This document shows positions 8,006 to 64,000 of a stretch of DNA of 64,000 bases, in pieces. The stretch spans positions 1-64,000 of the forward strand of contig WQVD01000005.1 in assembly GCA_009781755.1 (NCBI GenBank). The letters run 5' to 3'. The notes beneath the pieces were generated by a model that saw only the letters and a program-made list of their open reading frames with translations, had not been told where the DNA came from and made no database searches. How positions within the stretch are numbered: the stretch's first letter is position 1; every line of letters starts with the position of its first letter. The stretch comes from Defluviitaleaceae bacterium. GTDB taxonomy: Bacteria; Bacillota; Clostridia; Lachnospirales; WQUN01. Both the position numbers and the translations under genes were made by a program.

Positions 8006-8014
8006 GGCACACCT

Positions 8015-8311
8015 CTATGTAAGTATCGCTTTTATGCTGATTTCATCGTTACTGTCGTGGGGCAATACTTTTTTGAACAATTCCAGCAAATTTATGATCC
8101 GTGCGCTATATAGCCCCAACACACTGATTACGTGCGGCTCGGTCATTTCCAACAACCACGCAATGCCTTGAACAGGAACAGACAAGTAACAGTAGTAATA
8201 AATGACTTGCCGTTCTTCAAATCCAAATTCATCCACCGCGTGTGCCAAGATGCGCTTGGCATGGTTGTTGGCGATAAATGACCGCGGTATATCGGGCATT
8301 TTTATTTCCAA
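8015..8311 (-). CDS. Small sigma-70 region-4-like HTH protein
   Basis: A protein of about 98 residues resembling region 4 of a sigma-70 factor without region 2. It has an FEERQVIYYYCYL helix, then a helix-turn-helix-like stretch (VQGIAWLLEMTEPHVISVL). The start is uncertain. TTG 8311 has GAGGGTG seven bases upstream, and ATG 8299 is a weaker choice. It stops at TAG 8015-8017, in the same frame as the ECF sigma gene that follows, so the two are translationally coupled or joined by readthrough. It could be a partner or regulator of that sigma factor, as in split sigma systems such as SigO/RsoA, but this is inference. Confidence 0.6.
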   Translation of the reverse strand: MEIKMPDIPRSFIANNHAKRILAHAVDEFGFEERQVIYYYCYLSVPVQGIAWLLEMTEPHVISVLGLYSARIINLLELFKKVLPHDSNDEISIKAILT

Positions 8312-8400
8312 TTGCCAGCACCCTCTTTGTACGGTTTGTTCCCAGCGAAAAGGGCTTACACCTATTAATAGGGTCAAAATTCAAAAAGCGCACTAATTTT

Positions 8401-8420
8401 TTGAAAAATATTTTTTTCAA
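8401..8420. promoter_or_regulatory. AT-rich dyad upstream of the sigma/surface-protein operon
   Basis: TTGAAAAA (8401-8408) is mirrored by TTTTTCAA (8413-8420). It lies about 90 bases upstream of the sigma-region-4-like gene, in the expected promoter region. It could be an operator, possibly for the AbrB-like protein of the same operon. No clear -35/-10 pair was found here. Confidence 0.3.
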
Positions 8421-8511
8421 GTTTTCTATGTGGCAACCGTCGCATTATCAATACTCCTCACATACCATGTACGTAAGGTTTCTTATGTTTAGCATTTAAT
8501 TTTTGCAAATA

Positions 8512-8541
8512 AAAAATCGCCGATGGGTTTCGGCGATTTTT
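8512..8541 (-). terminator. Terminator after fusA (bidirectional)
   Basis: The stem AAAATCGCCGA/TCGGCGATTTT (8513-8523 with 8530-8540) has A/T runs on both sides. It closes the leftward str operon. Confidence 0.85.
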
Positions 8542-8563
8542 ATTTTATATCTTGGTAAATTGC

Positions 8564-10651
8564 TTACTGGTCCTTCTTCATGCCCAAGTGTTTCTCTTGT
8601 ACGCTCTTGGGTACGGGTTCGTAGTGGTGGACTTCCATGTTGTAGATACCGCGGCCTTGTGTTTTGGAGCGCAGGTCGGTGGCGTATCCGAACATTTCAG
8701 CCAAGGGTACGAAGGAGTGGATGACTTGCGCGTTGTTTTGCGCTTCCATGCCTTCAATGCGGCCACGGCGTGAGTTAATGTCGCCGATGACATCGCCCAT
8801 GTATTCCTCGGGTACGGTTACGTCTACTTTCATGATAGGCTCAAGGAGGGCGGGGTCGGACTTGCGCATCGCTTCTTTGAAGGCCATGGAGCCGGCGATT
8901 TTAAACGCCATTTCGCTGGAGTCTACATCGTGGTAGGAGCCTTCGTAGAGGGTGGCACGCACGCCCAGTACCGGATAACCGGCGATGATGCCCGAGGCCA
9001 TGGCCTCGCGGATGCCTTGCTCTACAGCGGGGATATATTCGCGGGGAACGGTGCCGCCCACAATTTTATCTACAAATTCGAATGCTTTGTCGGAGTCGTT
9101 GGCATCCATGGGCTCGAACAGGACTTTTACATGGCCGTACTGACCACGTCCGCCGGATTGGCGCACGTATTTGCCTTCCACGTCGGCGGCTTTGCGGAAT
9201 GCCTCGCGGTAGGCTACTTGCGGTTTGCCCACGTTGGCTTCTACGCGGAATTCACGCAGCAGGCGGTCTACGATGATTTCGAGGTGGAGCTCGCCCATGC
9301 CGGAGATAATGGTTTGACCGCTGTCTTGGTCGGTGTGCGTTTTGAAGGTGGGGTCTTCTTCGGCCAGTTTGCTCAGGGCAATGCCCATTTTGTCGCGACC
9401 GGCTTTGGTTTTGGGCTCGATGGCAACGGAGATTACCGGCTCGGGGAAAGTCATGGATTCGAGGATAACCTCGTGTTTTTCATCGCACAGGGTGTCGCCG
9501 GTGGTGGTGAATTTGAGACCTACCACGGCGGCGATATCGCCCGCGTGTACTTCGGTTATGTCTTCGCGATGGTTGGCGTGCATCTGTAGGATGCGGCCCA
9601 TGCGTTCTTTTTTGCCCTTGACGGAGTTGTACACGTAAGAGCCTGCCGACAGTTTGCCGCTGTATACGCGGAAGAATGCCAGCTTGCCTACAAACGGGTC
9701 GTTCATAATCTTGAATGCCAGCGCGCTGAAGGGTTCCGTGTCGGATGCTTTGCGATCGGTTTCGGCTTCGGTACCGGGCACGATGCCTTTGATGGCTGCG
9801 ATATCGGTGGGTGCAGGCAAATAAGAAACAACGCCATCCAATAATTTTTGGATGCCTTTATTCTTATATGCCGACCCGCAGAAAACGGGGGTGATGGTAC
9901 AGGCTAGACACGCTTTGCGCAGGCCTGCTTTCAACTGTTCGACGGTCAGTTCTTCGCCGCCCAAGTACAATTCCATCAGCTCGTCGTCGGTTTCTGCTAC
10001 TGCTTCAATTAAGATGCTGCGTTGTTCTTCGCAGGCGGCTTGATATTCTGCAGGGATTTCTACGGCTTCAAGGGGTTTGGTTACATCTTCCGGGTAGAAG
10101 AAGGCTTTCATTTCCAACAGGTCGATGTTACCTTTGAATTCGCTTTCTGCGCCGATGGGCAGCTGCACGGGCACGGCATTGGCACCCAAGCGTCCTTTAA
10201 TCATGCTCACAACGTTCAGGAAGTCTGCGCCCATGATGTCCATTTTGTTGACGTAGGCGATGCGGGGTACGGCGTATTTGTCGGCTTGACGCCACACGGT
10301 TTCGGACTGGGGTTCTACGCCCGATTTGGCGCAGAAAACACCTACCGCACCATCCAGTACGCGCAGGCTCCGTTCCACTTCTACGGTGAAGTCTACGTGG
10401 CCGGGAGTGTCGATGACGTTGATGCGGTGGTTATCCCACTGCGTGGTTGTGGCGGCGGACGTAATTGTGATGCCGCGTTCTTGTTCCTGCTCCATCCAGT
10501 CCATGGTGGCGGTACCCTCGTGGGTTTCGCCCAATTTATAGTTGCGTCCGGTATAGAAGAGGATGCGCTCGGTCAACGTGGTTTTGCCCGCATCGATGTG
10601 CGCCATGATGCCGATGTTACGGGTTCTTTCCAGTGGGAAAGTTCTACTCAT
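8564..10651 (-). CDS. fusA: Elongation factor G
   Basis: This 695-residue translation GTPase drives ribosomal translocation and, with RRF, ribosome recycling. The P-loop AHIDAGKT is at residues 17-24, switch II DTPGHVD and NKMD follow, and the full set of domains to the C-terminal KKDQ gives the normal family length. I chose ATG 10651 ([10 protein letters not shown]) because it has the ribosome binding site GGAAAGAAGGAAC and matches the usual EF-G N-terminus. The longer frame upstream of it runs through palindromic intergenic DNA. It is the last gene of the rpsL-rpsG-fusA operon; the usual tuf gene does not follow. Confidence 0.97.
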
Positions 10652-10686
10652 TTGGTGTTCCTTCTTTCCTAAGGTTAAAAGACAAA

Positions 10687-10760
10687 CCGCGGGGCTTCGC
10701 CCCGCACCCCACAAGGGGAATAATCCCCTTGACCCCTTTACTGAAACCGCAAGCGGTTTC
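10687..10760. repeat. Cluster of three short palindromes between rpsG and fusA
   Basis: Three perfect or near-perfect hairpins stand in a row: GCGGGGCTTCGCCCCGC (10689-10705), AAGGGGAATAATCCCCTT (10713-10730) and GAAACCGCAAGCGGTTTC (10743-10760). None has a T-run. They look like a REP-type intergenic element or an mRNA processing/stabilising site inside the str operon. Confidence 0.55.
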
Positions 10761-10860
10761 GACACTGACGAATGTGTCGTGCTATTTTGGCACAAGGCAT
10801 TCGACATTGATGGTTGGGTGTGCGGAGCCGAAGCCCCCCGAAAAATTCGTCAGTTGTTGA

Positions 10861-11331
10861 TTACCACTTATAGTGGGCGAACGCTTTGTTGGCGTCGGCC
10901 ATGCGGTGCATTTCTTCTTTACGTTTGACGGCTGCGCCGGTGTTGTTGGATGCGTCCAGCAACTCGTTGGCTAAGCGGTCGGTCATGTTTTTTTCGCTGC
11001 GGCGGCGGGCGAAGTATACCAACCAACGCAAGCCCAAGGCTTGGCGGCGGTCGGGTCTTACTTCGATGGGCACTTGATACGTGGCACCACCTACGCGGCG
11101 TGCTTTAACTTCCAATACGGGCATGATGTTGTTCAATGCCTCTTCGAACACTTCGATCGCGGGCTGGCCTTTTTTGGCGGCCGCTTTTTCGAATGCGCCG
11201 TAAACAATTTTTTGGGCTACGCCTTTTTTGCCGTCCAACATGATGCTGTTAACCAGCTTGGTGACTACCTTGCTGGCAAACAACGGATCGGGCAAAACCG
11301 AGCGTTTTGCTACGTGACCTTTCCTTGGCAC
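10861..11331 (-). CDS. rpsG: 30S ribosomal protein S7
   Basis: This 156-residue protein begins [16 protein letters not shown] and shows the S7 signature ([22 protein letters not shown], then [13 protein letters not shown] and RPDRR). It nucleates the head of the 30S subunit by binding the 3' domain of 16S rRNA. The start codon is GTG, with the ribosome binding site AAGGAGGG. It lies between rpsL and fusA on one transcript. Confidence 0.98.
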
Positions 11332-11493
11332 GAGGCTTCCCTCCTTAAATATGGGATTTAATTCATCGGTACTCGTGCGGGTTTTTCGCAGTTTCTATAA
11401 AACTGCCAGACCCTAACGTTCGCACCTTATAGGGAGCTGTCACTCTATATAAGGAAGCGATTGCTTCATTGCATTTTTGATGATGGGTACGAA

Positions 11494-15940: not shown

Positions 15941-16963
15941 ATGAAACCGCTTACACGCGACGAAGTCAAAACTGTTATTGAAGGCAAAGGACATGCATCA
16001 CGCGTACCCATTGCCATACAGGACTGGATAAGCACGGATCTATTTGGTGCGCACAAATATCCTTCAGACATCCATGTGATGCATATCCATATGCCGTCGA
16101 TGTTTGATGCTCCGGTTGATGACCCCGCGTATCGCTGGATGAGTTTTGATAAACCGGAGCCGACGGGTGACACGGCGGTTGCCATTGACGCGGATGTTTG
16201 CATCACCGATTGGGCGCAATTGGATGAAATAATTGCGGACTTTCCCAATGCCGATTATCATGGACTTACGGCCAGTAATGCGCCGGATGACGGACGGTAC
16301 CGCGTGGGGCTCTGGTGGTTTTGGCTGTTTGAACGGTTATGGTCATTTCGCGGAATGGAAAACGCGCTGGTAGATTTTTATGAATCGCCTGATGAAGTAC
16401 ATAAATTATTCCGCGTGTTGACGGATTTTTATAAAGACGTGCTAACGCGTTGTAAACACGAAATGCAATTGGATGCCATATGGACCAGTGACGATATTGG
16501 AACGCAAACCGGGCCTTTTTTTTCGCCCGGTATTTTTGATGAATTTTTTAAGCCTTACTACAAGGAATTAATTGATCATGCGCATAGCTTGGGGATGCAT
16601 TTTTGGATGCACACATGTGGAAATATTATTCCCTTCATCCCGGAGCTGATTGATATCGGATTGGATGTGCTGCATCCCATACAGAAATACACCATGGATG
16701 AAAAGGAAATCGCAGAACGGTTCGGGAACAAGATTTGCTTTTGGGCCGGTTTTGACGTACAGCAAATCATTCCCTACGGCACGCCGGAAGATGTGCGTCG
16801 CGAAGTGCGTTTTATGATTGACACGTATTTCCGCACGGATGGGCGTTTTATGCTGGCGGCGGGTAATTGGCTAACACCGGACACACCGGCCGAAAGTATC
16901 GAAGCGTTATTTGACGAAGCGTACAAATATGGTGCCCTGGTCGCCACCACAAGGAGGACTTAA
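15941..16963 (+). CDS. UroD/MtaA-fold protein A
   Basis: This 340-residue protein belongs to the uroporphyrinogen-decarboxylase-like superfamily, which includes MtaA/MtbA/CmuA methylcobamide methyltransferases. The motif FWMHTCG (His224, Cys226) corresponds to the first two zinc ligands of MtaA. The third, a Cys in the late GGFMLATGC-like segment, is replaced (RFMLAAGNW). True UroD is unlikely because no heme-pathway genes are nearby and the N-terminal UroD signature is absent. It opens a rightward operon with GH2 beta-mannosidase, a second UroD-like gene, GH2 beta-galactosidase, a CE15-like esterase and an epimerase. A role on a sugar-derived substrate, perhaps methyl transfer, is inferred. 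Confidence 0.8.
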   Translation: MKPLTRDEVKTVIEGKGHASRVPIAIQDWISTDLFGAHKYPSDIHVMHIHMPSMFDAPVDDPAYRWMSFDKPEPTGDTAVAIDADVCITDWAQLDEIIADFPNADYHGLTASNAPDDGRYRVGLWWFWLFERLWSFRGMENALVDFYESPDEVHKLFRVLTDFYKDVLTRCKHEMQLDAIWTSDDIGTQTGPFFSPGIFDEFFKPYYKELIDHAHSLGMHFWMHTCGNIIPFIPELIDIGLDVLHPIQKYTMDEKEIAERFGNKICFWAGFDVQQIIPYGTPEDVRREVRFMIDTYFRTDGRFMLAAGNWLTPDTPAESIEALFDEAYKYGALVATTRRT

Positions 16964-19603: not shown

Positions 19604-23682
<4,079 letters not shown>

Positions 23683-23793
23683 GATCAAAACTTTCATAAA
23701 AAAGGGACTGTCTCGCGAAATCCGCGGATTTATTTGAAATCCATTAACAAATCCATAAATTGCCTTACCCTATTGCATATACAGGAAGTGATT

Positions 23794-24963
23794 ATGATAC
23801 AACAAGCATTAAACACCCGCTGCATCCCCCCGTTATTTCCTACATGGGACAGGAATAAAACATTGGATATGTTCCAACGGTTGGAGTACGGTTATGTGCC
23901 GTGCAAACCTTTGTCCGTAACGAGCCATGAGGGCGATACGGAGGATTGCTTCGGCGGCATGGCGCGGTATAGGAAGGTTAATATCCATTGCCGGTTGGCG
24001 GAAGCGGATTATCCGGGGATAACGCTGGCACCGCAGTTGGGTGATACCTTTGTTTTTGACATTGATTGTTACATCCCTTCAATTGAAAAGGAGCAACGGG
24101 TACCCGCCGTGATAGCATGCAATGACCGCGAAGCATTTGATTTTGGCACATGCCCCGCGGATTTTTTATGCGCGCAGGGGTTTGCGGTGTTTAACCTACG
24201 CTACCGCAAGATTGCCAACGATCCCGTTAACCCCAACGGGTTAACGCAATTTGAACAACGGGGTATTGACCATTTTTACTACGGCAATCACCTAACCGCG
24301 TTGGATAAACGCAGCCGCGCCCCCCATGCACCCGGGGTGCTGGCGTTGTGGGCATGGGGTTTCTCCCGTGTGGCAGATTATGTTACGACGTTGGATTTTG
24401 TAGACAAGACGCATATCATAGGGGCGGGACATTCACGTATCGGCAAAGCGGTATTGCTGGCCGGTGCCCTGGATAACCGTTTTGCCTGTGTGTACCCCAA
24501 TGCCTCCTGCGCGGGAGGGGTTTCCCTCTCCCGCGGGTGCGGTAAGGAAACACTCGGCTCGTTGGTGGGGCTGTACCCCAACAGCGACTTGTGGTTCTGT
24601 GATAATGCATGGCAATTCGCCCATAAAAATTATGTGGACGAAGCAGGCGAACCTTTTGACCAACACGCCCTGCTTGCGTGTGTGGCCCCGCGCAAGGTGT
24701 ATGTAGGCAACGCGGATAACGACGAATATTGCGAAGCCGCCAGCGAATACCTGGCCTGCGCCGCCGCAAATGAAGTGTACCAACAAGCGGGGGGCAAGGG
24801 TTTTATACACCCCAACCGATTCCCCCACACGGGGGATACCTTTCATGAAGGTGATATCGGCTACCACCTGCGCGCAGGTCACCACGCCTTTAACCGGGAT
24901 GATTGGGCGCTGTTTGCAACATTTTACACAAGTAAAATGAAGGAAGTGAAGGCATGCAGCTAG
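23794..24963 (+). CDS. Alpha/beta hydrolase, CE15 (glucuronoyl esterase)-like
   Basis: A 389-residue hydrolase with nucleophile Ser214 in GHSRIGKAVLLAGALDNRF and a late histidine segment YHLRAGHHAFNRDDW, both typical of bacterial CE15-type esterases. CE15 enzymes cleave ester bonds of (4-O-methyl-)glucuronic acid. There is no signal peptide, so it would act on imported oligosaccharides. I chose ATG 23794 because AGGAAGTGATT precedes it; the frame upstream lacks a ribosome binding site. It overlaps the epimerase gene by 10 bases. A more general acetyl- or feruloyl-type esterase cannot be excluded. Confidence 0.65.
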   Translation: MIQQALNTRCIPPLFPTWDRNKTLDMFQRLEYGYVPCKPLSVTSHEGDTEDCFGGMARYRKVNIHCRLAEADYPGITLAPQLGDTFVFDIDCYIPSIEKEQRVPAVIACNDREAFDFGTCPADFLCAQGFAVFNLRYRKIANDPVNPNGLTQFEQRGIDHFYYGNHLTALDKRSRAPHAPGVLALWAWGFSRVADYVTTLDFVDKTHIIGAGHSRIGKAVLLAGALDNRFACVYPNASCAGGVSLSRGCGKETLGSLVGLYPNSDLWFCDNAWQFAHKNYVDEAGEPFDQHALLACVAPRKVYVGNADNDEYCEAASEYLACAAANEVYQQAGGKGFIHPNRFPHTGDTFHEGDIGYHLRAGHHAFNRDDWALFATFYTSKMKEVKACS

Positions 24964-25718: not shown

Positions 25719-25764
25719 AAAAGGAGCTGCCTTGTTTTCTTTAACCAGACAGCCCCTTTTTTAT
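25717..25764. terminator. Bidirectional terminator between convergent operons
   Basis: AAAAAAGGAGCTGCCTTG pairs with the CAGACAGCCCCTTTTTT segment around a 16-base loop. It serves the rightward glycan operon and the leftward rhamnose/corrinoid operon. Confidence 0.8.
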
Positions 25765-25791: not shown

Positions 25792-26835
25792 TTATTTTTC
25801 GTATTTCCCGTAGGTTTTTGCCAACTCCACCATGCGCTTGGCGCGCGTAAGGTCCGTGCCTGATGGATATTCGCATCCGGTTGCCAGCATGAAGCCGCCA
25901 CCTTTTTTGAATGTATCGATGAAGAACTTGCATTGCTCATCCCATTCTTCATCGGTGCCGATTTCTGCTAAAGCGGGGGTTACGCAACCGATGAGCGTAA
26001 TCTTGTCTCCGTATTTTTCTTTGCATTCGGCAAAGTCCTTGCAGTCGGCGGGCACGTGCAAAAATGATATGGCACAGGGACGCATCGTTTCGATTTGCTC
26101 TTTGAAGTAAATCTTCTCTCCGCAGTTGTGGATCATCACCAACGTGCCGCGGTCATGGCAAATATCCGCTAACTCCCGCACCAATCCGCCTTCAAACTCC
26201 ATCCACATGGACGGCGACATGATGGACGCGGATGCAAACAACGTATCCAACATAACGGCGTTGACACCGGTGTCGATGAGTGCGTTTGTATATTCTTTCA
26301 ATGTTTCGTTGATTTCGCGTGCGGCATTTTTTACTTCGCCCGGTACATCGTAGATGTCCATGTACATGTCCGCTTGGTTGCGCAGCATGGACAATACACC
26401 CAATGGCCCGAATACGAAGGTTACGACAGGCAATTCGCCGTTGGCCATTTCTACCAAGCGTTTGCACACGTCGATGTGCATCATCATGCGCTTACTGGTA
26501 CGGTAGTCCACTTTTTTTATTTTTGCGTAGTCATCGGTGTTTTTGATCACGCAATTGTCATAATTGGGATGAGCGGCTTGGTCTGCGGGGTACACAATTT
26601 CTTGGCCCCATGCGTCACATTCGATGGAAAGGTCAATGAGTGTGACGATGCAATCCAAGTCGAAATCTTTTGCCGCTTTGTATAATGCGTTGGCGCAGGT
26701 TTCGGCATCGGTTGCCCATTTTTCGTAGGATGCGCCCACGAGGTTGCGCGTCACCCCTGCCAGAATCGGATATACCGGCACACGGTCCGGCTCGCGGTGA
26801 AATAAACTTTCGACCACGCGTTCCATTTTTGTCAT
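25792..26835 (-). CDS. MtaA/MtbA-like corrinoid methyltransferase (UroD fold), protein C
   Basis: This 347-residue protein is the only one of seven UroD-fold proteins here with a complete zinc motif: His236-Asn-Cys238-Gly, then Cys321 in GGFMLATGCEYP. In MtaA, MtbA and CmuA this site holds zinc, which activates a thiol to accept a methyl group from methylcobamide. It is the last gene of a leftward operon with a DUF1638 gene and a corrinoid-protein gene directly upstream, which supports methyl transfer to or from that corrinoid. The ribosome binding site is GGAGTATATTC. The acceptor (coenzyme M is not expected in clostridia) and the methyl donor are unknown. Confidence 0.85.
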   Translation of the reverse strand: MTKMERVVESLFHREPDRVPVYPILAGVTRNLVGASYEKWATDAETCANALYKAAKDFDLDCIVTLIDLSIECDAWGQEIVYPADQAAHPNYDNCVIKNTDDYAKIKKVDYRTSKRMMMHIDVCKRLVEMANGELPVVTFVFGPLGVLSMLRNQADMYMDIYDVPGEVKNAAREINETLKEYTNALIDTGVNAVMLDTLFASASIMSPSMWMEFEGGLVRELADICHDRGTLVMIHNCGEKIYFKEQIETMRPCAISFLHVPADCKDFAECKEKYGDKITLIGCVTPALAEIGTDEEWDEQCKFFIDTFKKGGGFMLATGCEYPSGTDLTRAKRMVELAKTYGKYEK

Positions 26836-26858
26836 GAATATACTCCTTCAAACATTTT

Positions 26859-27608
26859 TTATTGGGTGGTGATGACCCTGTCCATGTCATACAGCGCGCG
26901 TACCCGTTGCCCGGGTTGGACGGTTAGAAAACGCGCGTCATCCCACGGCCCGTTAATCAACGCGTCGAGGTAAGAAATGTCACCTTGCAAAATCCGCACG
27001 GTTTTCCCTTGTTCGCTTACCATTTTGCTAAAACGTTCTTCGCAGGCGGTGTCGTTATACGCAGGAACGTTCATGCGGATGTACGCTGCCTCAGCGGTTC
27101 CCATTTCCGAGTACATGGTTTCCCATATATAGGCGGCGTTTTCTTCGCCGTATTGCTCAACCCATTGCATATATTCCGGATGTGCGGAGCGTTGCCCGGG
27201 TGATAAGGCATCCCAATCGTAGTTGCTGTCGCCTTGGTTGTACCCCCGTTCAAAGTAACCACCCGTACACCAATGCATACTCAAGTGGTCGCCAAACGCT
27301 TCCATGAACCGTTCCTTCGAACCCATAAAAAGCGTACAACAATCATGCACCCGCGGAATAACCATGGGAATCGGGCATACAAGGTCAACAATGGTATTGC
27401 CGCACAACCCAAAACCCAGCAATACTTGGTCATAACTGCGCTCGGTTGTGGCGGTATGAATCCGCCTTTGCAAATCCGCGCCCATTTCGGCAGGTTTGAC
27501 ATGGTTTAACATCGGCACAAACTCTACGTCTATCGTGTGTGCCGAAACCGCCACCAACGCACAAACCTGTCGAAAGAACACATCGCAGCAAATAAGTTTA
27601 TTACGCAC
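26859..27608 (-). CDS. DUF1638 protein
   Basis: A 249-residue protein with Cys-containing segments (LICCDVFF, FGLCGNTI, RVHDCCTLFMGS) typical of DUF1638. Proteins of this family are often encoded next to corrinoid proteins and MttB/MtaA-type methyltransferases; their exact role is not known to me. The GTG start overlaps the stop of the corrinoid-protein gene by 8 bases with no separate ribosome binding site, so the two are translationally coupled and may act as one unit. Confidence 0.75.
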   Translation of the reverse strand: MRNKLICCDVFFRQVCALVAVSAHTIDVEFVPMLNHVKPAEMGADLQRRIHTATTERSYDQVLLGFGLCGNTIVDLVCPIPMVIPRVHDCCTLFMGSKERFMEAFGDHLSMHWCTGGYFERGYNQGDSNYDWDALSPGQRSAHPEYMQWVEQYGEENAAYIWETMYSEMGTAEAAYIRMNVPAYNDTACEERFSKMVSEQGKTVRILQGDISYLDALINGPWDDARFLTVQPGQRVRALYDMDRVITTQ

Positions 27609-28239
27609 TTACTAAGATGTTTCGTGCTACGTCACCGGCGCTTGCCGCATCGGCGGTGTAATAATCCGCGCCGATTTCTTTGCAAAACGCTTCGGTGATG
27701 GGGGCACCGCCAACCATGATTTTTACCTTGTCACGCAGGCCGCGTTCGACGAATACTTCTACGACGCGTTTCATTTCGGTCATGGTGGTGGTGAGCAATG
27801 CCGAGCAGGCTACGATGGTCGCATCGTGTTCAGCTGCTGCATCAGCGAATTGTTCGGCAGATACATCCACGCCCAAGTCAAACACTTCAATGCCTTTGCC
27901 TTCCAGCATCAAGCGCACCAAGTTTTTGCCGATGTCGTGCAAGTCGCCTTTGACAGTGCCGATAACAGCGCGGCCAATGGGTTTTACACCGGCATCCACC
28001 AGCATGGGCTTTAAGATTTCCATGGCGGCGTTCATGGCGCGGGCGGCAATCAGCATTTCGGGCACATAGATTTCATTGGCGGTAAATTTTTGCCCGACGA
28101 TATCCATCGCGGGAAGCAAACCCTCGGTAAGGATTTGTTCCGCTTTGATGCCCTCACTAAGTGCTTCTTGTACGAAGGTCACCGCATCATTTTTTTTCCC
28201 TTTTTGGACAGCCAGGGAAATGTCGTTACATTTGCTCAT
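27601..28239 (-). CDS. Corrinoid (B12)-binding protein of a methyltransferase system
   Basis: A 212-residue two-domain protein. A helical cap (residues 1-88) precedes a Rossmann-like B12-binding domain. The base-off/His-on signature is GDLHDIG (Asp99, His101, Gly104), followed by the S146-x-L148 and GG (177-178) motifs. The layout matches MtaC/MtbC/MttC-type shuttles, which carry a methyl group on cobalt between two methyltransferases. It lies upstream of DUF1638 and MtaA-like genes and downstream of GH4 and RhaD genes. No reductive activase (RamA/DUF4445) is in the window. Ribosome binding site GAGAGGAGC. Confidence 0.92.
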   Translation of the reverse strand: MSKCNDISLAVQKGKKNDAVTFVQEALSEGIKAEQILTEGLLPAMDIVGQKFTANEIYVPEMLIAARAMNAAMEILKPMLVDAGVKPIGRAVIGTVKGDLHDIGKNLVRLMLEGKGIEVFDLGVDVSAEQFADAAAEHDATIVACSALLTTTMTEMKRVVEVFVERGLRDKVKIMVGGAPITEAFCKEIGADYYTADAASAGDVARNILVSA

Positions 28240-28271: not shown

Positions 28272-29681
28272 TTATTTTCTAACACCTTTGTAAGGTCGCG
28301 GGGGGATGAGCGTGCCGTTTTTTTCGGCCTGCGCCCGTCGTGTTTTTGCTTCGGAAATTGCTTTGGTGTATTGCGGCAGCCATTGTTCCTGCGCGATGAG
28401 CATTTCGTCCACCATTTGATCGATTTCACGCGGGGTGCATACCGCTCCGGTTAGGGGGTCAAGCAATACTGCTTGACGCAACAACCAATCGTCACCGGCA
28501 ATAGCGGCCTTAACCGCCAAGCGTTGCACGTTGACGCTTTGTGAACAAATGGCCGCAGGGCCATCAGGCAAATCACCGACAAAGGGCACGCTGATACCGT
28601 TGCCGTCGGCGTAGCAAGGAACTTCCACAATGCAGTCGTTGGGCAGGTTGGTGATGCAACCGTTGTTGACGACATTAAAGGTACCGCGATACAACCGACG
28701 CGTTTCGAGCGCTTCAATGATATAAGAACCATGCTCATGACCGCGATCGGTTCCATCAAATTTCATTGGCGGTGCATTCATGGCATTGGGGAAATCTTGC
28801 ACAAACCAATCACGCCTACCGGAACACTCACGCAAGTATCCGCCTGTTTCGCCATTAATCCAATCATCAAGGCTGATCCAATCCGCCAATTCGTCTTCGC
28901 GCTTGCGGTACCAAGCCACGTATTCGGATAAATGTCCGTTGGATTCCGTCGAGTAATACCCAAAGCGGCGCAATATATCAATGCGGACTTTTTCTTGTTG
29001 AGAGAAAATGGGATGCGCTTCATACGCGGCAAGCAGTTTGTCGCGCAATTCGACACCGTCTTTTTTTACGGACAAATACCAAGTTTGATGGTTGATGCCC
29101 GCGCATACGAAGTCTAATTCCTCGCGCTTCATATCAAGCGCAGAGGCAATTTGCCATTCGCCACCCATAACACCATGACACAAACCAATCGTGTTAATGC
29201 CGAAGTAATGGTTGCATGCCCACGTTGCCATGGCATTGGGGTTTGAATAATTTAAATGCAAAACCCCCGGTGCGCATACCTCGCGCATATCTTTGCAAAA
29301 ATCCTTCATGGCGGCGATAACACGCTGGCCATACATGATGCCGCCGATGCAAAGCGTGTCGCCCACGCATTGGTCTACGCCGTATTTCAAGGGTATCTCG
29401 ACATCGGTGGTAAAAGCATCAATAACACCAATGCGCACACAATTAATTACATAATTGGCACCGGTGAAGGCTTCGCGGCGGTTGAGCGTGGATTGGATTT
29501 TGGTGTTAATGCCGTTGGAATCCAAGTCGCGTTGGCAAAGTTCCGTCACCATGTCCAGATTGTGTTGATTAATGTCGGTGAATGCAATCTCCGCGCCGCG
29601 CAGTTCGGGCACGCTCATGATGTCGGTTAATAACTTCCGCGTGAAGCCCAAGCTCCCCGCACCGATGAATGCAATTTTCAT
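28272..29681 (-). CDS. GH4 NAD-dependent glycosidase (alpha-galactosidase/galacturonidase type)
   Basis: A 469-residue GH4 enzyme. It has an N-terminal Rossmann motif GAGSLGFTR, Asn-rich NYSNPNA (about 145-150), metal ligands Cys168 (LCHGVMG) and His198 (GINHQTW). GH4 enzymes cleave glycosides by an NAD+/Mn2+ redox-elimination route. Cys-His-Gly at the signature places it with the unphosphorylated alpha-galactosidase/alpha-galacturonidase branch rather than the 6-phospho branch. Its place in the rhamnose operon could suit a galacturonide from pectin, but that is inference. Confidence 0.85.
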   Translation of the reverse strand: MKIAFIGAGSLGFTRKLLTDIMSVPELRGAEIAFTDINQHNLDMVTELCQRDLDSNGINTKIQSTLNRREAFTGANYVINCVRIGVIDAFTTDVEIPLKYGVDQCVGDTLCIGGIMYGQRVIAAMKDFCKDMREVCAPGVLHLNYSNPNAMATWACNHYFGINTIGLCHGVMGGEWQIASALDMKREELDFVCAGINHQTWYLSVKKDGVELRDKLLAAYEAHPIFSQQEKVRIDILRRFGYYSTESNGHLSEYVAWYRKREDELADWISLDDWINGETGGYLRECSGRRDWFVQDFPNAMNAPPMKFDGTDRGHEHGSYIIEALETRRLYRGTFNVVNNGCITNLPNDCIVEVPCYADGNGISVPFVGDLPDGPAAICSQSVNVQRLAVKAAIAGDDWLLRQAVLLDPLTGAVCTPREIDQMVDEMLIAQEQWLPQYTKAISEAKTRRAQAEKNGTLIPPRPYKGVRK

Positions 29682-29705: not shown

Positions 29706-30524
29706 TTAAATAAACGCCGGGTTAAGTTTCGCGCCGAAGGCTTCGGTCAGCACTTTTAAATTTTCGTCTGTAATGGTTTGCAAAACGGGTTTGCCCGTGT
29801 GCAATACGGTCATGTAGATTTCTGCCGCGTTTTCGATGGTGTGGATGAGTCCGAACGCTTCGTCAAATGTTTCGCCTGCGGCAAAGAGCCCGTGAAATGC
29901 CCACACAGCGGAGGTGAATTCTTCCATGACCTTGCAAGTGGCATGTGCGATTTCTGCCCCACCGGGAAGCAACCACGGCACAACGCCCACCCCATGTGGG
30001 AACACGACAGCGCATTCGGTCATACTTTGCCACAAGGCACGGCTAAATTCGCGCGCGCAAAGCGGCAATACATACGTCATGGCGACAATGTTTGTGGGAT
30101 GCGCGTGGTAGATAACGCGGTTTTTACCATTCGTAGCGCGGTAACGCACGACGTGATTTAAATAGTGGGTGGGGAATTCGCTGGTGGGACGCGCATCGTT
30201 GACCAGCCCCCAAACAACGCGCCAAGCACTGCCCGTTGCGTTGATTTCCACAATGCCGATGTTTTCTTCATGTGCGAGCATTACATTTCGGAAATATTTG
30301 CCGCTGCCGGTACTGATAAAGAACCGTCCGCCCAGCGCTGCGTCAGCCACACCCATATCCACCCATGCAAGCGGGGCATGGAAAAACGGTTTGCACGCGG
30401 CCACATCTTCATCGGACATAAGATAAGTAAGGTTGCCGCCGTTGCGTTCGTGCCAATTTTGTTCCCAACCGTCGTTGCACATACGGAGAAATTGCGCCAC
30501 GCAGGGGATGCCTAAAATATTCAC
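29706..30524 (-). CDS. rhaD: Rhamnulose-1-phosphate aldolase
   Basis: A 272-residue class II aldolase that splits L-rhamnulose 1-phosphate into dihydroxyacetone phosphate and L-lactaldehyde. It matches the Escherichia coli enzyme throughout (WxERNGGNLT, STGSGKYFRNV, TNGKNRVIYHAH). The zinc ligands His140, His142 and His211 and catalytic Glu116 are all present. The start codon is GTG, with AGGAGGT upstream. rhaA and rhaB are not in the window, so the rest of the pathway lies elsewhere. It ties this operon to the rhamnose released by the GH78 enzyme. Confidence 0.93.
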   Translation of the reverse strand: MNILGIPCVAQFLRMCNDGWEQNWHERNGGNLTYLMSDEDVAACKPFFHAPLAWVDMGVADAALGGRFFISTGSGKYFRNVMLAHEENIGIVEINATGSAWRVVWGLVNDARPTSEFPTHYLNHVVRYRATNGKNRVIYHAHPTNIVAMTYVLPLCAREFSRALWQSMTECAVVFPHGVGVVPWLLPGGAEIAHATCKVMEEFTSAVWAFHGLFAAGETFDEAFGLIHTIENAAEIYMTVLHTGKPVLQTITDENLKVLTEAFGAKLNPAFI

Positions 30525-30528
30525 AATG

Positions 30529-32064
30529 CTACCTCCTGATTAAAAACACAGGTACCAAACCCTTGGTGGGCCGCCCCTGCGATGAAACTTCAATGACAAA
30601 TGAATAATCGGGTGCGGTCATTTTGTCGGTAGCGCGCAGTGTGAAGGTGCGCGCTACCCAGCCGAGGTTGCCCAAATGATACGCTTCCAACGGTACGGCA
30701 GATACTTCGCCTTCCTCGATTTCAAACCCGGGGGGCAAAAACCACTTGACGGTCATCCATTGCTGGCGGCGCACTTGGTTTTCTATCCGCAGCGTAAAGG
30801 TAACCGGACTATCTTGGCCTATGTACGGCTCGCCGCCGTAGTCCAGCACCGTATTAAAAATCACATGGTCATGCCGCACGCAAAACGGGCTTTGCCGCAG
30901 TAAATCATTGAAATCATGCCAATACCACAAGTCGCGCTGGTGCGGACGAGGCGTAGGACAGCGTAATTCGTCACCGGTTTTCATTTTGATGGTGTAACCG
31001 TTGTCGGCGGTTACATAATCACAAAGGTCGCAACCCAATATTTGCGGGGTGACACGGAGGACACGTTCGGTCATTTCGTCAATGGTTTGCGGTGGGAAGA
31101 ATATCCAGTCTGTGGCGTGGATGCTCATGGTTTTAATATTGCGGCCGATGGGGGTGATCCATTTTTCCGGGATGTTCTCGATGCCCATGATAATACCCAG
31201 TGTGGCACCCACGGTACCGGCGGTGCAGTCGGTGTCTTCGCCGCAATTGGTTGCAATACACACGCTCTTGCCCATATCGCCCTCACCATACAGCAAGCCG
31301 ATGATGACAATGCCCACATTGCCCGGCGCATCCCATCCTGCGGGGCCGACGGGTACGTCTTTTACAAAGCCGGGTTCGCTTCGGTCAAAATGCAAAAAGC
31401 TCCCCGGGTAGTCTGTCAGTACCTTCATGCGCGCTTCTTGCCAAGAGCATCCGCTTTTATGGCATTCGATCACACAGTTGATGGCACGCGCCACACCGCT
31501 GTCCGCGGGGATATAACTAAGCCCGATTTGAATGAGCTTGTGAATGTCGGATTCTGCGAAAGCCGCGCTTTGCATGGCCGCACAAAAAACCTCCGCGTAC
31601 AATCCTTCATGGCTGTGGTCCACGATGGCATCTTCACGCGCGTAGCGCACGGCAATATTGGGATGTCCGGGTGCCACACACGCCCATATCTCGCTGCGGA
31701 TCCACGCGCCGTTCGAATCACGGTAGGGATTGTTCATATACCCGGACATGGGCGGTACGATGTTGTAACGCATATTATTTTTTCCTGCGCCGTATTCCAC
31801 CCAATCCGGCGGTATGTAACTTAACCACAATTCGCCCAATTTGGCGGCGTCCACTTGCTTGCCGTAACGTTCCAACGCATACAGCCATACCAGTTGCAAA
31901 TCCAAATCATCGTTGGGCAACGGGTCACCGGTGATGTCATGCGTATAAAATTCCACATCCAGCATCGTTTGCGCGCCCTCAAACGGCCCGCCCAGTGTTC
32001 CGCCAATGTTTTTACCCATCCAGCATCCCAGTAGTTTGCTCCTGAATTGCGCAAGCGTCATCAT
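30529..32064 (-). CDS. ADP-ribosylglycohydrolase-fold enzyme with extra C-terminal domain
   Basis: A 511-residue protein. Residues 1 to about 370 have the DraG/ARH fold, with metal-binding Asp52, Asp53, Asp55 (PNDDLDLQLVW) and Asp277/Asp279 (GEDTDCTAG). About 130 further residues form a beta-rich domain (YIGQDSPVTFTLRIENQVR...), like an Ig or substrate-binding module. Classical members remove ADP-ribose from proteins, but homologues are common in Firmicute sugar operons and may hydrolyse other N- or O-glycosides. It lies between the DeoR gene (4-base overlap) and rhaD, favouring a metabolic role. Confidence 0.8.
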   Translation of the reverse strand: MMTLAQFRSKLLGCWMGKNIGGTLGGPFEGAQTMLDVEFYTHDITGDPLPNDDLDLQLVWLYALERYGKQVDAAKLGELWLSYIPPDWVEYGAGKNNMRYNIVPPMSGYMNNPYRDSNGAWIRSEIWACVAPGHPNIAVRYAREDAIVDHSHEGLYAEVFCAAMQSAAFAESDIHKLIQIGLSYIPADSGVARAINCVIECHKSGCSWQEARMKVLTDYPGSFLHFDRSEPGFVKDVPVGPAGWDAPGNVGIVIIGLLYGEGDMGKSVCIATNCGEDTDCTAGTVGATLGIIMGIENIPEKWITPIGRNIKTMSIHATDWIFFPPQTIDEMTERVLRVTPQILGCDLCDYVTADNGYTIKMKTGDELRCPTPRPHQRDLWYWHDFNDLLRQSPFCVRHDHVIFNTVLDYGGEPYIGQDSPVTFTLRIENQVRRQQWMTVKWFLPPGFEIEEGEVSAVPLEAYHLGNLGWVARTFTLRATDKMTAPDYSFVIEVSSQGRPTKGLVPVFLIRR

Positions 32065-32837
32065 AATATCCTCCGTGCATCCTCGTCCGGGGTGATAATA
32101 CGTATGTTCTGTTCTATCATCTTTTCAAACAGTGCTTCCGGGGGGCGTTGGTCGGTAACAAGCACATGTATCTTGTTTAAGTCGCATATACGGTAAAGCG
32201 CTGTTTTATCAAATTTGTCTGCGCTGCACAGCAATACATTCATTTGACTTTGGTTCATCATCACACGGCGCAGTTCCGCTTCTTCTGAGGACGAATCCAT
32301 GAGTCCGTGTTTTTCTGATATAGCGCGGCACGAAAAAAACAATTTATTTACACAAAAATTCCTTACTGAGCTTTCTGCGATGTCCCCTATAAAGGAAAGT
32401 GAATTTTCTCGCAGTTTGCCGCCGGTGGAAATAACATTGATGCGCCGTTCGTTTAATGAAAGGGCTGTCTTGGCTCCGTTGGTGATTACGGTAAGGCCTT
32501 TTTTTATACAGCGGATCATTTCGTGCGTGGTGGACGATGAATCCAGGATAATTACATCGCCTTCGTTGATTAACCCTGCGGCCAATTCTGCAATGAGCCT
32601 TTTTTCGTTACGCATTTCCTTTTCACGCAGGTACAAGGGGAGCTCGCGGTTTAATCCTTCTACCAACACCGCGCCCCCGTGTGTACGCACGATGAGCCCC
32701 TGCGTTTGCAAGTTCTCCAAGTCGCGTCGGATGGTGGCTTCGCTGCTGAATTGCGCTTTGGCCAACTCGGTTACCGTAGCGGTTTTATGTTTTTTCAAGT
32801 GCTCGACGATGGCTTGTTGCCGTTCTACGACAAACAT
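32061..32837 (-). CDS. DeoR/GlpR-family transcriptional regulator
   Basis: A 258-residue regulator with an N-terminal winged helix (TVTELAKAQFSSEATIRRDLENL) and a C-terminal sugar-phosphate sensor domain (DSSSTTHEMI, ITNGAKTALSL, GLMDSSSEEAELRR). Such proteins normally repress and are released by a sugar phosphate. It is the first gene of the leftward rhamnose/corrinoid operon and is divergent from a second rightward operon. A perfect dyad in the intergenic region is its likely operator. The effector could be rhamnulose 1-phosphate, inferred from rhaD in the same operon. Confidence 0.9.
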   Translation of the reverse strand: MFVVERQQAIVEHLKKHKTATVTELAKAQFSSEATIRRDLENLQTQGLIVRTHGGAVLVEGLNRELPLYLREKEMRNEKRLIAELAAGLINEGDVIILDSSSTTHEMIRCIKKGLTVITNGAKTALSLNERRINVISTGGKLRENSLSFIGDIAESSVRNFCVNKLFFSCRAISEKHGLMDSSSEEAELRRVMMNQSQMNVLLCSADKFDKTALYRICDLNKIHVLVTDQRPPEALFEKMIEQNIRIITPDEDARRIL

Positions 32838-33016: not shown

Positions 33017-34138
33017 ATGTCAAAAATCACCCCCATTCGTTCCCCTTGGAAGGGCACCATGACCCCGCGTGAACGTTTTAACCGGCAGATGCAATTTAAA
33101 TCGGTAGACCGCAGCTTTCACATGGAATTTGGTTACTGGGCGGAAAATTATTCGCAGTGGGATTTATTCGTGGACAACGGCATCAAGCACGAACATCAAG
33201 CGAATGAATTTTTCGGTTTTGATCCCATTGCCCAGGTGTGGATGGATGTATGGATGAACCCGCCGTTCGAGAGAAAAGAAATCGGGCGCAAAGGAAATAA
33301 AATTATTATGCAGGATGAAAACGGCTTGACCGCCGAAGTGCCGGAATCCGGATTGTCCACCATCCCGCACTACACGGATTCGGCCATAAAAAACCCCGAC
33401 GACTGGAAACGCGTCAAAGAAGAACGTTTTCAAATGAAACCATCGCGCATCCCCGATGTAGAGGGGATATTGAAAGCACACCCGAGTACGCGCGAGTACC
33501 CGTTGGGCATCGACTGCGGCTCCATGATTGGACGAATCCGCGATATGCTCACCTTCGAAGGCATTTGCTATATGTGGGCAGACTACCCCGATATGTTGGA
33601 AGATATGGTAGAAACTTGCTGTGTATTGGTAGAAGAATCGCTCAAACATGTGCTGGGCAAAGTGGATTTCGACTTCGCTACCGGCTGGGAAGATATCTGC
33701 TTCAACTATGGCCCCATTTTGCCGCCATCGTTTTTTGCGGAAGTCGTTGCCCCACGGTATAAGCGCATTGCGAAAATGCTCAACGCCAACGGTATTGACT
33801 TGTGGTATACCGACTGCGACGGCGATGTACGTCCGCTGCTTCCCATTTTTCTGGAATCAGGGATTAACTGCTTGTTCCCATATGAAGTTAACTCATGTAC
33901 GCACCCCGGCGAATTATTGGATGCATACCCCAACCTGCGCATTATGGGCGGCGTGGATAAAATGAAAATGATCGCAGGGAAAGAAGAAACGAAAAAATAC
34001 CTCGAAAGCTTGGTCCCCTTTGTGGAGCGCGGCGGGTTTATCCCCTTCTGCGATCATCGCTGCCCACCGGATGTAACCCCGGAAAATTACTTATATTACT
34101 TAGACCTTAAACACGCTCTCTTCGGCGGCAAGATGTAA
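33017..34138 (+). CDS. UroD/MtaA-fold protein D
   Basis: A 373-residue UroD-like protein. It has a 20-residue N-terminal extension and the zinc-motif position changed to Asp266-Cys-Asp268-Gly (DLWYTDCDGDVRPLLP). It shares GDVxPxxP, FLESG and YPNLRIMGGVDK with the protein at 19604, so both belong to one His/Cys-lacking subgroup. Cys267 is offset by one from the ligand position. It is the first gene of the operon to the right of the DeoR regulator, and a hairpin separates it from the next GH2 gene. Ribosome binding site AAAGGATGAGG. Substrate unknown. Confidence 0.78.
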   Translation: MSKITPIRSPWKGTMTPRERFNRQMQFKSVDRSFHMEFGYWAENYSQWDLFVDNGIKHEHQANEFFGFDPIAQVWMDVWMNPPFERKEIGRKGNKIIMQDENGLTAEVPESGLSTIPHYTDSAIKNPDDWKRVKEERFQMKPSRIPDVEGILKAHPSTREYPLGIDCGSMIGRIRDMLTFEGICYMWADYPDMLEDMVETCCVLVEESLKHVLGKVDFDFATGWEDICFNYGPILPPSFFAEVVAPRYKRIAKMLNANGIDLWYTDCDGDVRPLLPIFLESGINCLFPYEVNSCTHPGELLDAYPNLRIMGGVDKMKMIAGKEETKKYLESLVPFVERGGFIPFCDHRCPPDVTPENYLYYLDLKHALFGGKM

Positions 34139-50765: not shown

Positions 50766-50775
50766 GGGGGCATAT

Positions 50776-58115: not shown

Positions 58116-59147
58116 ATGACAGCACGGGAGATCATCACAAAACGCTTGAACCATGAAGGTACAAGCGTTACACCGTATAATTTATTTATCGAGTACGAGC
58201 TTGAGCAAAAAATAGCGGCATATTACAAAGATGAAAACTGGCGCACAAAAAAGTTGCGCCGGTTTACGACCAATAGCCTTTGGATAGACACGCAACTGTT
58301 CACCCCATATGACGATATCCGTCAAAAGGATGTGTATGGGGCGATATGGCGCATGGACAAACGACCGTGGCATTTGGAAACGCCGCCATTAGATGAACCA
58401 ACCCTGGATGGATATGACTTCCCGGGGGAGGCTGCTTTTGTCACGCCTATTTTGGAACGTAAAGCTGCCGCCATCGAAGCGTACAACGCCGATACCGAAC
58501 ACTACCGCATCATCGACATGGGATGGGGTATTTTCGAACATTCGTGGAAGTTGCGCGGGTTTGAAAATGTACTCATGGATATGATTACCGACGAAGATTT
58601 TTATGCCGAGATGACAACACGCATTACCGATAATTACATTGCCATGATTAAGACTTGTGCGGATGTGCCCGCAGATGCTTTCATGTTTGGCGACGACTGG
58701 GGCGACCAACGCGGTGTCATTATGGGGCCTGACCGTTGGCGCAAGTTCTTAAAACCTTGTTGGGCGCGGATATACGCCGAGGCAAAAAAACAAGGCAAAA
58801 AAACCATCCAACATTCGTGCGGCAGTATTGCCGAAATCTATGACGACCTTATAGAAATTGGTCTCGATTGCCATGAAAGCGTGCAGCCCGAAGCGAACGG
58901 CATGGCACCCGAAGTGTTAAAAGAAAAATGGGGCAAAAAAATGTCCTTTTGGGGCTGCTTGGGTTCGCAAGGCATTCTATGCCATGGCACCCCCAAGGAA
59001 ATCGAAACGGAAATCAAGCGTTTGCACCATTTATTTAAAGACGACGGTGGTTTTGTTTTATCACCCGCCAAGCCGCTGATGGATGAAATGCATGTTGACC
59101 AAGCAATAGCAGTTATCGAAACATTGGGGGAACTCAATGAAAGTTGA
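58116..59147 (+). CDS. UroD/MtaA-fold protein E
   Basis: A 343-residue UroD-like protein. The zinc-motif position is His233-Ser-Cys235-Gly (TIQHSCGSIAEI), keeping the first two ligands. The third Cys is absent (GGFVLSPAKPL). It resembles the protein at 15941 in this respect. A Cys-containing segment (FWGCLGSQGILC) lies near 275-285 and might supply another ligand. The ATG follows the GH4 stop codon with no gap and a weak ribosome binding site, implying coupling. The GH127 gene overlaps its end by 11 bases. A pairing of glycosidase and UroD-like protein is repeated throughout the locus. Confidence 0.78.
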   Translation: MTAREIITKRLNHEGTSVTPYNLFIEYELEQKIAAYYKDENWRTKKLRRFTTNSLWIDTQLFTPYDDIRQKDVYGAIWRMDKRPWHLETPPLDEPTLDGYDFPGEAAFVTPILERKAAAIEAYNADTEHYRIIDMGWGIFEHSWKLRGFENVLMDMITDEDFYAEMTTRITDNYIAMIKTCADVPADAFMFGDDWGDQRGVIMGPDRWRKFLKPCWARIYAEAKKQGKKTIQHSCGSIAEIYDDLIEIGLDCHESVQPEANGMAPEVLKEKWGKKMSFWGCLGSQGILCHGTPKEIETEIKRLHHLFKDDGGFVLSPAKPLMDEMHVDQAIAVIETLGELNES

Positions 59148-62238: not shown

Positions 62239-63303
62239 ATGTTTGCACTCAAACCGGATTATGAACAAGCCAAGCGTCGCATTGAAACGTTTTGGCACCA
62301 TGAAGATACCGATCGCCCATTTGCCCGCATCGTGTATCCCAAAGCCAACGCGAAGCCCATCACACAAAAACACCATGCCACCAAAGAAGATTGGTGGCTG
62401 GACGTTGAATATCGTGCGGAAGCGGATGCGCAATACATGGAAAATTTCGTGTATTTTGCAGATGCGTTGCCGTTGTTAAGCCCGAATCTGGGGCCCGGTA
62501 TTTTATCTGCATGGGCGGGCTGCCCGTACACTTTTGGGCTTGAAACCGCGTGGACAGACCCCTGCGTAACCGATTGGGAAAAAGACAAAGCCATCATGGA
62601 CATGAACCATCCGCTGGCAAAAAAATTGGAAAAATATACCGCGCTCTTGTTGGAACGCGGCAAGGGAAAGTTCATCGTTGGGTTGTCAGACTTCCACCCC
62701 GGCGGCGATCACTTGGCCGCATTGCGCGGCAACGAAGCGCTGGCCATGGACATGTATGACAATCCCGATGCGATAAAGGCTTGGTTGGAATCTTCCTATG
62801 CAGAATATTTCCCCATATATGATTACTATGTAGATTGGCTCAGACGCGAAGGGCAGCCCATTGCGTCGTGGTTGCACCTGGTGGATGATGAAAAAATGTA
62901 CATCCCCAGCAATGATTTTTCCTGCATGGTTAGCAAGGATATGTTTGACGAGTTTTTTTTACCGGGGATCATCCGCGAATGCAAGCATTACGGTAAGAGT
63001 ATTTACCACTTGGACGGCCCCGGTGCGTTACAACACTTGGATTCGCTGCTTGCAATACCCGAATTGCATGCCATCCAATGGGTGCCGGGTGCCGGGCAAG
63101 ATGAATTGTATCGCTGGGTGGATGTATGCAAAAAAATATTAAACGCAAAAAAATCGCTGTACTTGGATGTGTTTAGGAAGCATGACTTGGATGTCGTCAT
63201 GGAAAACCTGCCTGCAAAGGGTCTTGCTTTAAATATTTGCAATATCCGCAATGAAGAAGATGCAAATGATGTGTTGAAACGGATTTCGTCATGGCCACGG
63301 TAG
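62239..63303 (+). CDS. UroD-fold protein G (divergent)
   Basis: A 354-residue distant UroD-like protein. The motif position reads SIYHLDGPGALQHL, keeping His257 but with Asp259 replacing Cys. It is followed by a HAIQWVPGAGQDELYRW segment, suggesting a different chemistry from methyl transfer to thiols. Ribosome binding site GGGGGAAAT. It overlaps the CobW-like gene by 13 bases and directly follows the protein F gene; F and G may form a heteromer. Substrate unknown. Confidence 0.65.
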   Translation: MFALKPDYEQAKRRIETFWHHEDTDRPFARIVYPKANAKPITQKHHATKEDWWLDVEYRAEADAQYMENFVYFADALPLLSPNLGPGILSAWAGCPYTFGLETAWTDPCVTDWEKDKAIMDMNHPLAKKLEKYTALLLERGKGKFIVGLSDFHPGGDHLAALRGNEALAMDMYDNPDAIKAWLESSYAEYFPIYDYYVDWLRREGQPIASWLHLVDDEKMYIPSNDFSCMVSKDMFDEFFLPGIIRECKHYGKSIYHLDGPGALQHLDSLLAIPELHAIQWVPGAGQDELYRWVDVCKKILNAKKSLYLDVFRKHDLDVVMENLPAKGLALNICNIRNEEDANDVLKRISSWPR

Positions 63304-64000
63304 ATTTAATTACGGGGTTGCTGGGCGCGGGCAAAACCACATTTATCAAGGGTTATGTCAAATATCTGGCGAAATCCGGCGAACGCGTTGCGGTAGTTGA
63401 AAATGAATTTGGCCGCGCAGGCGTGGACACCGCCATATTAAAAGAAGACGATGACTTAACCGTCATGGAATTAACCGGCGGATGTATTTGTTGCGATTTG
63501 AAAGTAAATTTCGTAAAGACGCTGGCCAAATTGGCTGAAACCTGTGACCGCATTATCGTGGAACCGTCGGGCGTATTTACGCTGGGCGACTTTTTCGAAG
63601 TGATGAAAGCACCGATTTTTAAAGACCGCGTACAAATCGGTACGATCGCCACCATTATCAGCGGCGTTGCACAAATGAACGAAGAAGACGAAAAACTCTT
63701 TGCGTCGCAAGTGTATGGCACGGGTATTATCGTGCTTAATCGGGGTGCATCATACGATGGTGATGTGCCCGTCATTACAGACAGCGGGTTTACCGATGCG
63801 GATTACGAAGCAATAAAAAATGCCAAACCCGGCGATACAGGGCACAAAGCAGATATCAACCATGCGTTCATTTATCAAAGCGCTTCCTTTGCCCCAGTCA
63901 TCGAAAACCAAGACGTAGAAAGCGTTGTCACTTCATTGTTTGCGCCCGAATGCGGCAATGTACTGCGCGTCAAAGGTTATATCGGCGGGTTCTTGGTGAA
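63291..64000 (+). CDS. CobW/G3E-family GTPase (3' end outside window)
   Basis: The first 236 residues of a metal-chaperone-type GTPase. It has P-loop GLLGAGKTT, switch region VVENEFGRAGVD, the metal-binding motif GGCICC and EPSG. The usual guanine motif NKxD reads LNRGASYDG, so nucleotide choice may differ. Family members insert Zn, Co or Ni into enzymes. ATG 63291 overlaps the upstream UroD-like gene by 13 bases, so it is coupled to it. A likely role is delivering zinc or handling cobalt/corrinoid for the locus. The frame is still open at the window end. Confidence 0.88.
   Translation, partial: MATVDLITGLLGAGKTTFIKGYVKYLAKSGERVAVVENEFGRAGVDTAILKEDDDLTVMELTGGCICCDLKVNFVKTLAKLAETCDRIIVEPSGVFTLGDFFEVMKAPIFKDRVQIGTIATIISGVAQMNEEDEKLFASQVYGTGIIVLNRGASYDGDVPVITDSGFTDADYEAIKNAKPGDTGHKADINHAFIYQSASFAPVIENQDVESVVTSLFAPECGNVLRVKGYIGGFLV

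Follow-up and report, generated by a model that had tools for sequence, protein, structure and literature searches.

In the UroD/MtaA superfamily, a His-Cys-Cys metal site marks sulfur or selenium methyltransferases, whereas substitution by a carboxylate or a non-ligand residue marks O-methyltransferases (PMC10418091). In type 1 mlp clusters, Mlp2 and Mlp3, both of them His-Cys-Cys proteins, are encoded together in one cluster (PMC10418091). The substrates of known UroD-family demethylases are aryl methyl ethers (PMC13222342). In addition, methionine synthesis in Phaeobacter needs DUF1638, RamA-like and split corrinoid genes, and a phenotype of the DUF1638 gene is known there (PMC5764234).

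The window, a stretch of 64,000 nucleotides from a Defluviitaleaceae genome (GCA_009781755.1, contig WQVD01000005.1), carries a corrinoid protein, a DUF1638 protein and an MtaA-like UroD-family protein, hereafter the triad, at the distal end of a seven-gene run on the minus strand (Table 1). Like the UroD-family O-demethylases OdmB/VdmB/MtvB/MtoB and CdmBCA (PMC13222342), it has UroD-fold methyltransferase genes near the gene of a cognate corrinoid protein with a cap and a B12 domain, and an ATP-dependent activase is encoded in the genome, but it differs in having a His-Cys-Cys MtaA-like protein instead of a tetrahydrofolate (THF) methyltransferase and in its sugar-operon context. With type 1 mlp clusters (PMC10418091) it shares a His-Cys-Cys MtaA-like protein, a corrinoid protein and the lack of a THF methyltransferase, but there is a single His-Cys-Cys UroD gene rather than the Mlp2 and Mlp3 pair, the activase lies outside the cluster on contig C8, and DUF1638 and sugar genes stand in place of sulfur or selenium genes. 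The adjoining corrinoid and DUF1638 genes, with a RamA-like activase elsewhere in the genome, recall the split methionine synthase of Phaeobacter (PMC5764234), whereas the genome has no pterin-binding component and its homocysteine methyltransferase gene is unlinked.

The reading we favour, to which we give somewhat less than an even chance, is that the triad supplies the shared carrier and the outgoing half of a corrinoid methyl-transfer system serving the plant-glycan locus of contig C5. Methylated sugars occur in plant, algal and microbial glycans, and to our knowledge no enzyme has been described for the anaerobic removal of sugar methyl ethers; a literature search of limited coverage found no paper that connects sugar demethylation with corrinoid methyl transfer. 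UroD-family corrinoid demethylation is known, and what would be new is a variant of it in the plant-glycan/sugar-operon setting of a gut-type Clostridia genome, a proposition that is testable but unproven. The earlier note was right to flag the linkage between corrinoid genes and a sugar operon and to call demethylation testable. If true, sugar O-demethylation by the UroD paralogues u19 and u33 of the same locus would be an anaerobic equivalent of the oxidative demethylation of sugars, and a function for the u19 type would cover a large group, since a two-motif scan of the genome collection found 555 relatives, which match only the URO-D family.

The seven-gene operon

The three open reading frames of the triad were confirmed as the earlier note had described them, including their Pfam matches and the GDLHDIG signature, and they do share an operon with a DeoR regulator, an ADP-ribosylglycohydrolase-family (ARH-fold) enzyme, RhaD and a GH4 glycosidase: all seven genes lie on the same strand and are tightly spaced, with gaps of -8 to +32 nt. 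The DeoR and ADP-ribosylglycohydrolase genes overlap by 4 nt, a 4-nt gap separates the latter from RhaD, and 24 nt lie between RhaD and GH4. At the distal end, the GH4 gene is followed after 32 nt by the corrinoid gene, the 8-nt overlap reported between the corrinoid and DUF1638 genes is real, and 23 nt separate DUF1638 from the MtaA-like gene. A purine-rich Shine-Dalgarno sequence (GGAG-, AGGAGG-, GGGG- or GAGAG-type) precedes six of the seven genes, and the sole exception is DUF1638, again as first noticed. Since its GTG start falls within the last bases of the corrinoid gene without such a site, the sequence makes it likely that DUF1638 is translationally coupled to that gene. The designation "rhamnose operon" fits in part: RhaD is present, but it is alone there, and RhaA and a lactaldehyde-reductase-like enzyme are encoded on the same contig at a distance of some 45 kb.

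Table 1. Positions, strands and distinguishing features of the genes discussed, in window coordinates.
Feature	Position	Strand	Match or remark
UroD paralogue u16	15941..16963	+	H-x-C...N; directly upstream of GH2 gene
UroD paralogue u19	19604..20593	+	D224-x-D226 and D304-H305; 4-nt overlap with next GH2 gene; candidate substrate demethylase
Glucuronoyl-esterase-like (CE15-type) protein	23734..24963	+	PF22244 1.9e-23; same plus-strand run as u19
MtaA-like UroD-family methyltransferase	25792..26835	-	URO-D 4.4e-47 (Pfam); His236-Asn-Cys238 and Cys321
DUF1638 protein	26859..27608	-	PF07796 2.6e-23; GTG start
Corrinoid shuttle protein	27601..28239	-	B12-binding_2 7.6e-22, B12-binding 3.1e-27; cap and GDLHDIG B12-binding domain
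GH4 glycosidase	28272..29681	-	CHGV at metal-site cysteine
Rhamnulose-1-phosphate aldolase RhaD	29706..30524	-	NF002963 292.8 bits (cut-off 170); TIGR02624 301 bits, below its cut-off
ADP-ribosylglycohydrolase-family protein	30529..32064	-	PF03747 1.7e-38
DeoR-family regulator	32061..32837	-	Operon's first gene
UroD paralogue u33	33017..34138	+	D-C-D and D-H; upstream of GH2 gene; candidate substrate demethylase
UroD paralogue u58	58116..59147	+	H-x-C...K; between GH4 and GH127 genes
CobW-type GTPase	63291..64000	+	Runs on to ~64103 of contig C5; 50% identical to CobW GTPase adjoining an MtaA orthologue (L060)

The DUF1638 protein retains the family motifs GLCGN, PRxHDC and GSKE, and the nearest NCBIfam model of the corrinoid protein is of the MtgC/MtbC type, with a score below its cut-off. 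A recent compositional island was considered and rejected on GC content, which is 0.505 in the triad vs 0.513 in the rest of the operon and 0.499 in the window. No Rfam match to a cobalamin or SAM riboswitch was found in 129 kb of the genome's own sequence, and a scanner for promoters and terminators found none above shuffled expectation. Reading by eye, there is an inverted repeat with a T-run between the convergent operons, at about 25720-25760.

Conservation of the operon and the triad

The earlier note had proposed looking for the same seven-gene order in other clostridia, and it was found only in the genome of the window: no second instance appeared when it was sought via DUF1638 (12 of 196 genomes of the order), via MtaA (21 orthologue-type loci) or via the ADP-ribosylglycohydrolase (10 of 196). 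That note had also held that finding the triad mainly in unrelated contexts would count against a sugar function. This did not happen, as none of the other genomes searched yielded the exact triad, a result that speaks neither for nor against a sugar function.

The components taken singly have other neighbours. Few genomes of the order carry DUF1638, and at none of its other loci there does a corrinoid or MtaA gene stand beside it; at one of them only (L025) does an activase adjoin DUF1638. None of the MtaA orthologues adjoins RhaD or GH4, and most are not close to corrinoid genes; their neighbours include CobW GTPases (L060, L061, L063), cobalamin-synthesis genes (L072) and MetH with CobT (L075). 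The nearest relative of the ADP-ribosylglycohydrolase (G141, 63-64% identity) has a UroD gene in its neighbourhood, but neither RhaD nor a corrinoid gene. In a genome of the same family (L228:5159-10002), the closest relative of this enzyme has in its vicinity a UroD paralogue that shares 67% identity with u79 of the window's genome.

Methyl-transfer components elsewhere in the genome

The search for a RamA/DUF4445 activase in the rest of the genome, advised in the earlier note, succeeded: the genome's only corrinoid activase, a RACo/RamA-like protein of 502 aa, is encoded on contig C8 (PF14574, 1.4e-60), with AcsV and RamA as its nearest NCBIfam models, both scoring below their cut-offs. The THF methyltransferase partner named with it was not found, as Pterin_bind (PF00809) has no match in the genome, whose completeness is 94.85%, and thus the classical O-demethylase route to methyl-THF appears not to be encoded. 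MetE was likewise not found in the genome, which has one standalone homocysteine S-methyltransferase (PF02574) on contig C25. A second corrinoid protein, MtgC-like and without a methyltransferase neighbour, is encoded on contig C2 (L006:9417-10109).

The MtaA-like protein

Among eight aligned UroD-like open reading frames, the His-x-Cys...Cys site occurs in the MtaA-like protein alone, in agreement with the earlier description of it as the one intact member. Across 19 sequences of the MtaA-like family, its residues H236, C238 and C321 do not vary. The predicted structure (pLDDT 94.0) has 4ay8/4ay7, methylcobalamin:CoM methyltransferase, as its best fold match (TM 0.81), and by sequence the M. 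mazei methyltransferase 4ay7 is the sole relevant solved relative. The protein is therefore like MtaA/MtbA in fold and in metal-ligand pattern, but unlike them in score: it reaches 113.6 bits with NF004889, the model of the methylcobalamin:CoM methyltransferase subfamily (cut-off 244), and 93 bits with TIGR01463 (cut-off 235.4), and coenzyme M as the acceptor is unsupported. Assignment as the heme enzyme UroD (HemE) was rejected at 40 bits vs a cut-off of 303. Its orthologue group comprises proteins at 47-68% identity in 20 of 391 genomes of the class and one at 38%, below which identity drops to 27%; within the sample of the order, only the window's own genome is represented.

Because the His-Cys-Cys site is typical of sulfur/selenium methyltransferases (PMC10418091), a thiol-directed step is to be expected of this protein. 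Hence, from its sequence, it is more likely an outgoing methyl-corrinoid:thiol transferase than a sugar demethylase.

UroD paralogues and their link to corrinoid machinery

Of the seven UroD-family genes that a genome search returned, six lie on the 90-kb contig C5 (the MtaA-like gene and five others), and a direct scan caught an eighth, weaker member, u33, which that search had missed. Immediately downstream of each of the genes for u16, u19, u33 and u58 is a glycoside hydrolase gene (GH2, GH2, GH2 and GH127, respectively). In the alignment, u19 and u33 have Asp-x-Asp at or near the position of the MtaA His-x-Cys and Asp-His at that of the second Cys, which would place D224, D226, D304 and H305 of u19 at the metal positions. 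None of the four varies among 20 sequences of the u19 family, and on this ground the notion that the other UroD genes are broken copies was rejected for u19. The model of u19 (pLDDT 93.6) has the UroD/MtaA fold, and searches by sequence found no solved relatives of u19 or of DUF1638.

In several other genomes, relatives of u19 and u33 lie with corrinoid genes. One locus of another Clostridia genome (L077, same record as L138) has in a single run an activase, a PocR-AraC regulator, a corrinoid protein (59% identity), u33 (60-67%) and u19 (59%); an MtaA orthologue (47%) is encoded there on the other strand, and further out follow genes for sugar ABC transport. Corrinoid, u19, u33-like and activase genes occur together in L126 and L134, corrinoid, activase and u19 genes in L200 and L212, and an activase, a corrinoid gene, MtaA (65% in L065) and several UroD genes in L065/L080, while in Caldicoprobacter algeriensis (L140) PocR-AraC, corrinoid, CobW and u19 genes are found with sugar transport. 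Across Clostridia, an activase is present in 31 of 34 genomes with u19 vs 13 of 30 without it (Fisher p 4e-5, phylogeny and genome size being ignored), and in other phyla, where only genomes with u19 were compared, in all 27, one by a weak partial match. Nevertheless, at about 70 of 80 loci no corrinoid gene was recognised within 9 kb of the u19 relative, and housekeeping genes adjoin many of these relatives; thus u19 is not sugar-specific by context and is tied more clearly to corrinoid machinery than to sugars.

At L134:13436-15046, beside the MtaA-like, u19, u33-like and activase genes, a single open reading frame fuses an AraC-type regulator to a corrinoid protein, which may represent either an operon whose genes have fused or a sensor that uses a corrinoid. 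In two Opitutae MAGs (L155, L166, at about 7970-11391), u19 is flanked by genes for a ROK-type kinase and a GHMP (galactokinase-like) kinase, and in L166 a GalT-like gene was identified by eye nearby, an arrangement that suggests a galactose-related role there.

A possible methyl route and its alternatives

In the proposed route, u19 and u33 as the best candidates, or other UroD paralogues, would demethylate an O-methylated sugar or a glycan-linked methyl ether and place the methyl group on Co(I) of the corrinoid protein of the triad. The MtaA-like protein would then move it from Co(III) to a thiol, while the contig C8 activase, helped by DUF1638, would re-reduce Co(II); DUF1638 is proposed here as a helper of corrinoid reactivation. 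A thiol is put forward as acceptor because no methyl-THF-forming enzyme of a known kind is encoded, and thiols can serve as methyl acceptors in systems of this kind (PMC10946705); THF as the acceptor is unlikely. The earlier suggestion that a methylated sugar or rhamnoside is demethylated is thus upheld in one part, since other genomes do link corrinoid and sugar genes through u19 and u33, but not in the other, as this link does not run through the MtaA-like gene, whose product is probably not the demethylase. Sugar as the substrate is a candidate that rests on genomic context and is testable but unproven, and the broader proposition that UroD proteins of the u19/u33 type (Asp-x-Asp/Asp-His) are corrinoid O-demethylases of methylated sugars, passing the methyl group via the MtaA-like protein to a thiol rather than to THF, is doubtful. 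The CHGV motif of the GH4 glycosidase, together with the CE15-like gene, allows the guess that the substrate is 4-O-methyl-glucuronate. Against the model stand the neighbourhoods of the u19 relatives and of the MtaA orthologues and the fact that the seven-gene operon is so far unique to this genome, so that the triad may adjoin RhaD and GH4 by chance.

The triad might instead have its role in the metabolism of methyl-sulfur or methyl-selenium compounds, which has been proposed for mlp clusters, with its place in a sugar operon incidental. The His-Cys-Cys site of the MtaA-like protein, the absence of a THF methyltransferase in mlp clusters too, the cobalamin-synthesis, CobT and MetH genes next to MtaA orthologues (L072, L075), and a locus (L079) with a distant MtaA, DUF1638, CobW, activase, corrinoid and sulfur-amino-acid genes all point this way. 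We consider it unlikely, however, since type 1 clusters need both Mlp2 and Mlp3 where this genome has one His-Cys-Cys UroD gene, and the operon, partnered with sugar genes, holds no activase or sulfur gene.

That the same machinery acts not on sugars but on methoxylated aromatics, such as lignin-carbohydrate ends or methoxyflavonoid rhamnosides released by the esterase and glycosidases encoded in the locus, would accord with the aryl substrates of known UroD-family demethylases and with the glucuronoyl-esterase-like gene and GH78-like rhamnosidase in the window. It is likewise unlikely in view of the absence of aromatic-degradation genes from the annotated parts of the locus, of the missing THF methyltransferase, which known O-demethylase systems use, and of the galactose-type kinases and GalT-like gene seen by eye near some u19 relatives (L155, L166). 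Highly improbable is a split methionine synthase in which the corrinoid protein and DUF1638 pass methyl groups to homocysteine via the contig C25 enzyme: the standalone PF02574 protein, the lack of MetE and the gene requirements in Phaeobacter (PMC5764234) agree with it, but without Pterin_bind methyl-THF could not be the donor, which leaves another methyl donor still possible.

Other genes of the glycan locus

The plant-glycan locus that the triad would serve under the favoured reading further comprises, on contig C5, GH43, GH78-like and GH30-like genes, a second GH4, sugar ABC transporters, D-lyxose isomerase, ketohexokinase and an aldolase, in addition to RhaA and the lactaldehyde-reductase-like enzyme. 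The CobW-type GTPase gene at the end of the window also lies in this sugar locus, and its product is a possible metallochaperone for UroD metal sites. Finally, a DUF5696 protein (50728-53352; 2.4e-166) adjoins ABC permease genes of the locus.
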